A stretch of DNA of 64,000 nucleotides from Pseudomonadota bacterium (GTDB lineage: Bacteria; Pseudomonadota; Alphaproteobacteria; Caulobacterales; Caulobacteraceae). Both the position numbers and the translations under genes were made by a program. Location of the stretch: NCBI GenBank assembly GCA_018241995.1, contig JAFECT010000003.1, positions 496,001-560,000 of the forward strand. The letters run 5' to 3'. Shown one piece after another: positions 38,969 through 41,921 of the stretch (position 1 is its first letter; every line of letters begins with the position of its first letter). A model generated the notes under the pieces. That model searched no databases, was not told the DNA's origin, and was given only the letters and a program-made list of their open reading frames with translations.

Positions 38969-40030
38969 CTAGACCGCCGCGCGCAGCCCCGCCCAGGCCG
39001 AGCGGGCGCGTCCTTCGCAGGCGTCGTGCAGCAGATCCTCCAGCTGCTCGGCCCGGCGCTCGGCGGAGTGGTGAGCCACCACCTTGCGCCGCGCGGCGTC
39101 AGCCATGCGGCGGCGCTCTAGTTCGGGGGACCAGAACAGCAGCCTGACGACCTCGTCCGGCGTGCGCGCGGTCTGGATCTCGCGGCCTGGCGCGAACAGG
39201 GACGACAGGCCCGGCCAGGGCTCGGCGATCATCGCCGCCCCGCAGGCCGCTGCCTCGAACAGGCCCGCGCCCGGCGAGAAGCCCGCCTCGGCCCGATCGG
39301 GCCGCGCAGCGTTCAGGATGAAGCGGCAGGCGGCGTAGAAGGCGGGGCGGCTGGTTTCGGGAACCTCGCCCAGGCGTTCGATATTGGCGGGCCAGCGCTC
39401 GATGTCGCCATAGCCGGAACCTGCGATCACGAAGGTCCGTCGCGGCGCACGACGCGCGGGTTCGATCAGGAGGCGCTCGATCACCGCCTCGCGGTCGGCG
39501 TCATAGGCGCCGATGTAGCCCAGGTCCCATTTCAGCGGCCGCTGGCAGGGCTGGAAGGTCTCCGTATCGACCGAACGATAGAGGGTTCTTGCCGCGCGCG
39601 CCCGCACCCGTCGCTCCAACCGCCTCAGGATGGGCCCGCCCGTATCGGAGAGGTAGAGATCGTAGTCGTCCGCCCCCTCGTCGCTGGCCGGCCTGCCGCG
39701 CTCGATCTCCGCCAGGGTGGCGGGCGCATCTACGTCGTAGAAGACCTTGGCCCCGGTCGCGGTGCGCCGCGCCCAGCGCCCGACCACCGCGCCGTCATCC
39801 AGGCCGGAGGCCACCAGCACCGCGTCGGCGCCGGCCACCTCGGGCGCAAAGGATTTGAGTTCAAACAGATTCCGATAGGCCACGCGCTCGCAGCCCTCGG
39901 GCGGGCTTTGCTCGCTCAGGCCAGGCTCAAGCACCAGCACATCGTTGCCGCGCCCGGCGAAGGCTTCGAGCAGGGGCCGCCAGGTCGCATCGCGGGCCGC
40001 GGGCGGAGGAGCGAGCACGGCCAGCCTCAT
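38969..40030 (-). CDS. Glycosyltransferase, CgeB-like
   Basis: A 353-aa GT-B-fold protein. The N-terminal half starts 'MRLAVLAPPPAARDATWRPLLEAFAGRGNDVLVLEPG', typical of short GT-B enzymes, and the second half contains 'LGYIGAYDADREAVIERLL' and 'GFSPGAGLFEAAACGAAMIAE', the donor-binding Glu motif of CgeB/GT1-like transferases. The nucleotide-sugar donor and acceptor are unknown; CgeB homologs decorate spore or cell-surface polymers. No other polysaccharide genes adjoin. Confidence 0.8.
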   Translation of the reverse strand: MRLAVLAPPPAARDATWRPLLEAFAGRGNDVLVLEPGLSEQSPPEGCERVAYRNLFELKSFAPEVAGADAVLVASGLDDGAVVGRWARRTATGAKVFYDVDAPATLAEIERGRPASDEGADDYDLYLSDTGGPILRRLERRVRARAARTLYRSVDTETFQPCQRPLKWDLGYIGAYDADREAVIERLLIEPARRAPRRTFVIAGSGYGDIERWPANIERLGEVPETSRPAFYAACRFILNAARPDRAEAGFSPGAGLFEAAACGAAMIAEPWPGLSSLFAPGREIQTARTPDEVVRLLFWSPELERRRMADAARRKVVAHHSAERRAEQLEDLLHDACEGRARSAWAGLRAAV

Positions 40031-40235: not shown

Positions 40236-41921
40236 TCAGCGCTTCAGGTCGATGGTGATGACCGAGCTCTCGTCGAAACCGTAGCGCACGGTCTTGGCCT
40301 GCAGCGACTGGGCCGGGCCCACCACGACCGGCGTGGTATAGATGCGCCAGGGCTCGCCGTCCTTGGGCCGCCACAGGATGGTGGCGCCGGGCGTCATGGA
40401 GGCCAGCATCAGGCGACCGCCCTGCAGCAGGCTCGTGGGCTGCACCGCCATCGGCGTCTGCCCGCCCGGCTTATAGCTGTCCTTCAGGTCCTGGGTCGAA
40501 GCGGTGGACGTATCGGGCGCCGACGCCGCAAAGGCGTTCAGCACCTGGCTGAGCCGCGTAACGTCGCCGGAATGGCCTGCATCCTCGGCCAGATTGTGCT
40601 GCGCCTGCGGATCGGCCTTCAGATCGTAAAGCTCCGCCTCGGGGCGCTCGGACGCGTAGAGGCGCTGCTGGGCGGCGGTCAGCCTGCCGGCCTTGCGCGC
40701 CGCCTCGAACGCCGCGGTCATGGGTCCTGCGCGATCGAGCGACGCCTGGACCGTGGTGGGCGCAAGGTTCATGAGATAGAGCCAGCGGCCGTCGCGCACG
40801 GCGAACACCCGCTCATAGACGCCGTCGACCCGGTTCTGCACCGTGAATGCGAACTTGGCCGGATCGGCCGAAGTGGTCAGCCGGTCCTTGCCCTGCATCC
40901 AGGCCAGGGGCTGCAGATGCGCCAGCTTCAGCACCGACGGCGCGAGGTCCACGCCCGACACGAGGTCGCGCCGCACGGTTCCCTTGGCCTTACCGTCGGG
41001 AAAACGGACGATCAGCGGCACGTGCACGCCCCCGTCATAGACGGTGCGCTCGGCGCCCGGGCGGGCCGGACCGGTCTTGGCGGTGAAGATCACCACCGTG
41101 TTCTTCAGCACCCCGGCCTTGTCGAGGCGGGCGAGGACATGCCCCACCTCATCGTCGACGTGATGGATGCGGTCGTATTCGTTCTTGAGCGCCGCCCGCA
41201 CCTCGGGCGTGTCGGGCAGATTGGCCGGAACTGCGATCTTGCGCGCATCGGTGACCGGCTTGATGCGGCGTTCGGCGTCGGGGTCCTGCCGCCAGAACTG
41301 GAGCTTGTCCCAGAAGCTGCGCGGTTTGGGATCGCCGGCGGCGTCGGGCAGGGTCGACAGATCAATCACGCCCACGAAGGGCTGGCGGATATTGACGGTG
41401 GGCCAGCCGCCGCTGCGCATGTTCTGGGTCCACAGCGAATCCGGCGACCCGAACGGATCGACTCGCGCGCCCATGTGGAAGCTGTGATAGCCCGCCGCGC
41501 GCAGCAGCTCGGGATAGGCGCGCACCTCCGGCGGCGGGACGACGGTCCACTGCGGCTCGCCGGTCCACTCCTGCACCATGCCGATGGTGGAGGGATGCAT
41601 GCCGGTCAGCAGCGCCACCGTTTCGGCGTCCTCGCCGCCCGAGGCGGCATAGGCGTCGGTGAAGGTCACCCCCTCCCGGGCCAGGCGATCGATGTTGGGG
41701 GTCTGGGCGGCCTTGTCGCCATAGGCGCCGAGCGTAGTGGTGAGGTGGTCGACCTCGATGACGAGGATGTTGGGCCGGGACTCGGCGGCCGGGCGCGCCT
41801 CGATGGCGCCGTCGCCGGCCTTGCCCTTGCCGCAGGCGCTCAGCGTCAGGGCGGTCAGGGCCAACACGGCGCCCGCGCGGCGCCAGGGCTTCAGTCGAAG
41901 AGTCCCGAAATCGAACGGCAT
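40236..41921 (-). CDS. Degenerate sulfatase-like lipoprotein with chitobiase-type C-terminal domain
   Basis: A 561-aa protein, start ATG 41921, with lipobox 'LTLSAC' (Cys30). The sulfatase fold is clear from 'PNILVIEVDHLTTTLGAYGD', 'TPNIDRLAREGVTFTDAYA' and 'VALLTGMHPSTIGM', 'RTVYDGGVHVPLIVRFPDG'. But the catalytic C/S-x-P-x-R before 'LLTG' is replaced by 'GGEDAETVA' (about 95-103), and the metal-binding 'DHG' is 'KTG' (282-284); the first metal motif keeps only one Asp of DD. It should therefore not be an active formylglycine sulfatase. Residues ~500-561 ('TILWRPKDGEPWRIYTTPV') resemble a chitobiase C-terminal domain. Confidence 0.85.
   Translation of the reverse strand: MPFDFGTLRLKPWRRAGAVLALTALTLSACGKGKAGDGAIEARPAAESRPNILVIEVDHLTTTLGAYGDKAAQTPNIDRLAREGVTFTDAYAASGGEDAETVALLTGMHPSTIGMVQEWTGEPQWTVVPPPEVRAYPELLRAAGYHSFHMGARVDPFGSPDSLWTQNMRSGGWPTVNIRQPFVGVIDLSTLPDAAGDPKPRSFWDKLQFWRQDPDAERRIKPVTDARKIAVPANLPDTPEVRAALKNEYDRIHHVDDEVGHVLARLDKAGVLKNTVVIFTAKTGPARPGAERTVYDGGVHVPLIVRFPDGKAKGTVRRDLVSGVDLAPSVLKLAHLQPLAWMQGKDRLTTSADPAKFAFTVQNRVDGVYERVFAVRDGRWLYLMNLAPTTVQASLDRAGPMTAAFEAARKAGRLTAAQQRLYASERPEAELYDLKADPQAQHNLAEDAGHSGDVTRLSQVLNAFAASAPDTSTASTQDLKDSYKPGGQTPMAVQPTSLLQGGRLMLASMTPGATILWRPKDGEPWRIYTTPVVVGPAQSLQAKTVRYGFDESSVITIDLKR

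Follow-up and report, generated by a model that had tools for sequence, protein, structure and literature searches.

The window, by which we mean the whole stretch of 64,000 nucleotides that was analysed, contains on its minus strand an open reading frame (positions 40236-41921) that encodes a protein of 561 amino acids when translated from its ATG; according to the list of reading frames, a longer product starting at a TTG in the same frame is also possible. The 561-residue protein belongs to the S1 family by its profile, scoring 99.7 bits against the Pfam Sulfatase model (PF00884, cut-off 25), and it matches SGSH_C with 50.8 bits. The solved structures nearest to it in sequence are S1_8 sulfatases, with E values down to 1e-42. 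An AlphaFold2 model based on a 40-row alignment had a mean pLDDT of 85.7, and its best structural match was S1_8C (Z 46.1, 2.2 Å over 411 residues). Judged from sequence and model together, the protein retains a sulfatase fold, as an earlier, sequence-only reading had held, and this fold is of the S1_8 type. A single ortholog was found in the genome of a different genus (G007) of the Caulobacter family, to which the bacterium of the window also belongs; it is 46-49% identical and matches over nearly the full length, including the C-terminal domain. The features of the gene are listed below, with the residues of the ortholog where they concern the active site.

40236..41921, minus strand: predicted pseudo-sulfatase lipoprotein gene, 561 residues (reading frame, Pfam, AlphaFold2 model, best matches to S1_8)
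41832..41921, minus strand: signal peptide with lipobox LSAC (residues 27-30) and presumed lipidated Cys30 (read from the translation)
41745..41750, minus strand: former first metal motif (E/D-D), now D58-H59; D-A in the ortholog (alignments)
41619..41639, minus strand: former nucleophile motif C-x-P/A-x-R, now GGEDAET, residues 95-101, with C to E97 and R to T101 (alignments)
41466..41468, minus strand: former catalytic Lys (NGK), now A152; P in the ortholog (alignment)
41346..41348, minus strand: former catalytic His (THES), now P192; P in the ortholog (alignment)
41070..41078, minus strand: former second metal motif DHG, now K282-T283-G284; R-T-G in the ortholog (alignments)
41049..41051, minus strand: former sulfate-binding Lys, now E291; E in the ortholog (alignments)
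40239..40484, minus strand: chitobiase/FN3-like beta domain, residues 480-561 (weak PF03174, alignment, model, fold comparisons)

The LSAC at the end of the signal peptide is what we take to be a lipobox, as did the sequence-only reading, and TAAC was read at the same place in the ortholog. The protein is probably a lipoprotein anchored to a membrane, as predicted from its sequence, and the Gly at +2 after Cys30 presumably suggests sorting to the outer membrane. The genes in the window and in G007 are both single open frames with a strong codon-position bias (GC3 = 0.89 and 0.88, respectively). A promoter scan found no promoter and was uninformative.

We take the Ca2+ ligands of S1 sulfatases to be a D-D or E-D pair together with D-H/N-G, and the roles given here to the Lys and His residues are likewise assumed. 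The formylglycine consensus of the family is C/S-x-P/A-x-R, as described in PMC10154612. In the 561-residue protein no modifiable Cys or Ser lies in such a motif, one of the four Ca2+-ligand positions is still acidic (D58-H59, K282-T283), and the sulfate-binding and acid/base Lys and His residues are replaced (K152A, H192P and K291E). Among the 126 other homologs in a 128-row alignment, the nucleophile column holds Cys in 125 and Ser in one, D59 is kept in 124, the Asp at the DHG position in 125 and Lys291 in 124. The residues at the nucleophile, metal and Lys columns are E97, H59, K282 and E291 in the 561-residue protein and S97, A59, R282 and E291 in the ortholog, where the nucleophile stretch reads S-G-A-A-W (Ser present, Arg absent) against E97-D-A-E-T101 here. 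The replacement of the formylglycine site by GGEDAET and of DHG by KTG, both noticed from the letters alone, was therefore borne out. A missed C-x-P-x-R, which had been named beforehand as grounds for abandoning the idea of a pseudo-enzyme, was considered and rejected, as no alternative alignment within the 128 rows placed Cys/Ser-x-Pro-x-Arg at the catalytic position or restored C/S-x-P/A-x-R. Two other S1 homologs, L068:379-1905 and L038:7167-9008, have motifs without the Arg (CSVSH and CTPSG, respectively) and keep the Asp at the DHG position; these are possibly further variants, or errors of alignment or sequence.

To count the losses, 40 rows (alignment A2) were selected from the 561-residue protein and 127 distinct homologs with BLAST scores of at least 100. 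Fifty-nine columns were at least 90% conserved in the 38 relatives of A2, and eight of them (58, 59, 97, 101, 152, 192, 282 and 291) were assigned to the active site. The 561-residue protein keeps 0 of these eight columns and 40 of the 51 other conserved columns (one-sided Fisher p 3.4e-5), and the ortholog keeps 0 of eight and 39 of 51 (one-sided Fisher p 5.7e-5), a test that is not blind since the active-site columns were chosen from general knowledge of arylsulfatases after the alignment had been seen. The change at column 58 is a conservative E to D, and D is also present there in 3 of the 38 relatives. When, as a control, the 38 relatives were left out one at a time, every one of them kept at least six of the eight active-site columns. 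The earlier impression of a pseudo-enzyme was well founded in that loss was seen at every active-site position examined.

The C-terminus had been likened to that of chitobiases. In the 561-residue protein PF03174 (CHB_HEX_C) gave 14.0 bits (E 0.05), below its cut-off of 23.6, while at an E value of 0.01 PF13290 matched 4 of 40 members (best E 3.6e-5) and PF03174 matched 3 of 40. Residues 480-561 modelled alone had a mean pLDDT of 88.9. With this domain alone, Foldseek placed bacterial chitobiase at ranks 2-4 (E 0.004-0.008) and returned no match under E 0.001; rank 1 was 9joq, an entry whose title carries no molecule name. Chitobiase reached Z 7.4-7.6, tied with fibronectin-type (FN3) domains, and the highest Z (9.7) was that of an Akkermansia enzyme. 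It is probable that the domain is chitobiase-like; the profiles of a few relatives lend this some weight, and so does the fold, although FN3 domains score as high, while the protein's own profile match falls below the cut-off. The domain is probably ancestral because intact relatives have it too, and a fusion unique to the pseudoenzyme was rejected on the same ground, so that the earlier description probably holds for the type of domain, which is not an innovation of this protein.

In its fold the protein is like human sulfamidase SGSH (4mhx and 4miv, Z 42.6-42.8), an active N-sulfatase, whose SGSH_C domain it also matches. It also shares its fold, mainly over residues 48-485, with S1_8A, S1_8B and S1_8C of the lambda-carrageenan system of Pseudoalteromonas (9bb9, 9bes, 9bef, 9bbd, 9bba and 9bep; Z 36.6-46.1 across the S1_8 entries). 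These are described as active formylglycine sulfatases (PMC12549532), whereas in the window protein all but one of the acidic ligand positions are replaced. Sulfatases of the S1_8 type act on algal sugars, from which they take off 2-O-sulfate. The characterised S1_8 enzymes take the 2-sulfate off galactose, as the same paper reports (PMC12549532), and removal of the 2-sulfate from xylose in ulvan is reported for an S1_8 enzyme in PMC9096561.

The whole architecture, including the C-terminal domain, is found with intact active-site motifs in L036, L037, L039, L064, L118-L134, L138, L140-L142 and the Alteromonas plasmid pAlt76 (WP_129740766.1), the hosts belonging to further families of the window bacterium's order, to Alphaproteobacteria outside it and to Gammaproteobacteria. 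Several of these relatives have lipobox-like starts by eye, so the lipobox is no innovation of the pseudoenzyme either, and where measured they are 29-36% identical to the window protein. Intact orthologs had been named as a finding that would speak against a pseudo-enzyme; intact motifs were seen only in such distant homologs, and the closest ortholog is not intact. L037 contains further sulfatases and an FGE-family gene (227 bits by Pfam, no name from NCBIfam). A second S1 sulfatase directly follows the intact relative in three loci (L037:5980-11712, L064 and L039; Gammaproteobacteria), and in L037 the FGE-family gene and a third sulfatase come after it, apparently as an operon of sulfatases that includes a maturase of its own. 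In L144 the intact relative lies beside genes for a TonB receptor and a sugar transporter, and in L146 beside GH3, GH106 and GH43 genes, while the two neighbours scanned in L148 are not polysaccharide genes. In pAlt76, which is described as encoding an ulvan system (PMC6431674), the intact relative adjoins a rhamnosidase and is close to a GH88 gene.

In a tree of the 40 rows the 561-residue protein and its ortholog group together with an ultrafast bootstrap of 100%, and the stem of this clade measures 0.65 substitutions per site. The two are identical at 48 positions where the shared residue is found in at most one of the 24 relatives with the C-terminal domain, and T283, E291, P192, W119 and W125 are common to both and absent from those 24. 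The shared replacements run from DHG to K/R-T-G, K to E, H to P and R to W, and near the old motifs both proteins have exchanged basic or polar residues for hydrophobic or aromatic ones (R119W, Y125W, H192P and T191L). The GGEDAET stretch, whose conservation in orthologs had been proposed as a check, did not prove to be conserved, as the ortholog has SSGAAW at this site; retention is instead seen in the kept fold and in the shared replacements elsewhere. Sequencing error or local damage was rejected because an ortholog from another genus has the same eight losses. At E values of at most 1e-60 the pseudo-sulfatase is carried by two of 390 family genomes, the genus of each member being represented by one genome; a third match, in G160, has an intact C-S-P-S-R. 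With two members in 390 family genomes, a single event in one lineage may account for the changes that they share. In our assessment the two proteins probably represent a rare pseudoenzyme branch of the S1_8 formylglycine sulfatases that has been kept as a non-catalytic envelope lipoprotein.

Profile searches identified no sulfatase maturase in the window genome (G000), which is 97.93% complete so that a maturase gene may have been missed, or in G007. TIGR03942 matched neither of the two genomes, and the PF03781 matches in both are EgtB. A maturase suspected in the window genome from PF03781 was rejected, the protein being an EgtB-EgtD fusion. In contig C11 of this genome (L034:164-2569) a single frame encodes both EgtB and EgtD, whereas C51 of G007 (L154:307-2559) has two adjacent genes for them. 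The PF00884 matches were the pseudo-sulfatase gene and a phosphodiesterase-like protein in the window genome and the ortholog only in G007. This phosphodiesterase-like protein, at C1:106408-107004 (L003:634-2523), has 630 residues, a Phosphodiest profile and no NCBIfam name at E 1e-10.

The lack of a recognisable maturase in either genome would also be expected of a relict, that is, the one sulfatase left over from a polysaccharide pathway that has been lost, its frame not yet broken, functionless now and under relaxed constraint. No polysaccharide-degradation gene was found among the scanned neighbours in the window, and the pair has diverged faster than one housekeeping gene (68% identity for endonuclease III). 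The raw pN/pS of the pair, 0.73 against 0.47-0.62 among 25 of 243 comparable relative pairs listed, is compatible with relaxed constraint and leans that way, although the comparison is blurred by base composition and by saturation of the synonymous sites (pS 0.527 versus 0.549 ± 0.024 in reshuffles; pN 0.387). Because of this saturation dN/dS was unusable as proof of selection. A relict is nevertheless unlikely in view of the full-length frame in two genera, the retention by both members of 37 of the 51 conserved columns outside the active site, the 48 shared derived positions and the retention of both lipobox and codon bias. In addition, the losses are concentrated on the active site, which is unexpected for a decaying gene.

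The neighbours of the two genes were examined by Pfam. Those in the window are a glycosyltransferase-like protein, an MFS transporter, SRAP, an aldehyde dehydrogenase, AstA, an M20 peptidase, DUF2244, HhH-GPD (endonuclease III), GST, DUF4142 and RadC, with no match for 4 of the 15 neighbouring reading frames. The eight neighbours scanned in G007 are PALP, a SpoU methylase, VIT, an FGGY kinase, an EF-G-like protein, bPH_2, ShlB and a TonB-receptor barrel. Since the neighbours differ between the two genomes, the context names no partner. A Glyco_trans_1_2 glycosyltransferase gene at 38969-40030 of the window (minus strand) follows the pseudo-sulfatase gene downstream in the same orientation, at a distance of about 200 bases, and the eight G007 neighbours that were scanned include no such gene.

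Another candidate role is that of a surface lipoprotein that binds a sulfated glycan without cutting it and so helps to capture sulfated oligosaccharides, to which the TonB-receptor barrel, some 4 kb away from the ortholog, would lend some support. The lipid anchor and the C-terminal beta domain, both kept, would suit such a binder, and several intact relatives are located in sulfated-polysaccharide loci (L037, L146 and the ulvan plasmid pAlt76). The idea seems quite improbable: the conserved basic residues of the old site (R101, K152, H192, K291 and R119) are replaced in both members, and neither the 15 window neighbours nor the eight in G007 that were scanned with Pfam include a recognisable glycoside hydrolase, lyase or second sulfatase. 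It is scarcely conceivable that the protein is an active hydrolase with a new chemistry, in which D58, H59, E97, D98 and E100 would form a different metal site, for although an acidic cluster and H59 do occupy the places of the old nucleophile and metal motifs, H59, E97, D98 and E100 are A, S, G and A in the ortholog and only D58 is conserved.

For a retained non-catalytic lipoprotein, which we regard as the probable reading, the following course of events can be proposed. The common ancestor of both members would already have been inactive. In place of Asp282 and Lys291 both proteins have Lys/Arg282 and Glu291, a charge swap beside the kept acidic residue 58, and charges of the protein itself may hold the lost Ca2+ site so that the fold stands without the metal. 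The pocket has probably changed its ligand, to judge from the hydrophobic or aromatic residues that both proteins have at formerly basic or polar positions. What was retained would be a lipid-anchored folded domain, probably at the outer membrane, that serves to bind some ligand or protein partner; like the sequence-only reading, we infer a binding or structural role in the envelope. More tentatively, and with some doubt, a formylglycine sulfatase lineage may have been turned wholly into a non-enzymatic outer-membrane lipoprotein, with the Lys/Arg-Glu swap standing in for Ca2+ and a pocket rebuilt with aromatic residues to suit another ligand or partner in the envelope, and may persist in genomes that have abandoned sulfatase maturation.

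The closest working analogy for such a non-catalytic role may be YejM/PbgA. The periplasmic domain of YejM/PbgA/LapC is described as having a fold of the sulfatase/LTA-synthase superfamily and no catalytic residues, and YejM/PbgA as a pseudo-hydrolase scaffold that senses lipid A (PMC13125744). Since YejM is termed a metalloenzyme in PMC7576196, this precedent for a pseudo-hydrolase is itself debated. YejM also differs in being an inner-membrane protein, and the window protein is not a member of that group, scoring 35.8 bits with the NCBIfam equivalog model for YejM (NF038282) against a cut-off of 825. Members of the YejM/PbgA group would be expected to bind lipid A and to control the turnover of LpxC. 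If our interpretation is right, the window protein would be a second case beside YejM in which the fold serves without catalysis, and one could study with it, in a simple setting, how the fold of a metalloenzyme endures once the metal is gone. The fold alone easily earns an enzyme annotation among the S1 sulfatases, a family that is very large and has been heavily mined, and a conserved dead branch would be a warning against calling enzymes by fold.

As to the wider distribution, a search of the open-licence literature by title and start of abstract found no paper on a pseudo-sulfatase, and a scan of the genome contigs with the single protein returned no relative. The intact relatives from a search with a two-row alignment come from the best 80 of 469 confirmed relatives, and are thus a sample of the nearest. 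On plasmids, the active-site residues were inspected in one record (H7, pAlt76) among the 15 listed of 228 matching records. At the level of the order, a match at E 1e-50 was obtained in 22 of 398 genomes, a count that includes both members of the clade and three matches that stop before the C-terminal domain. In the class sample, matches were found in 4 of 385 genomes including that of the window, and the other three have intact motifs.
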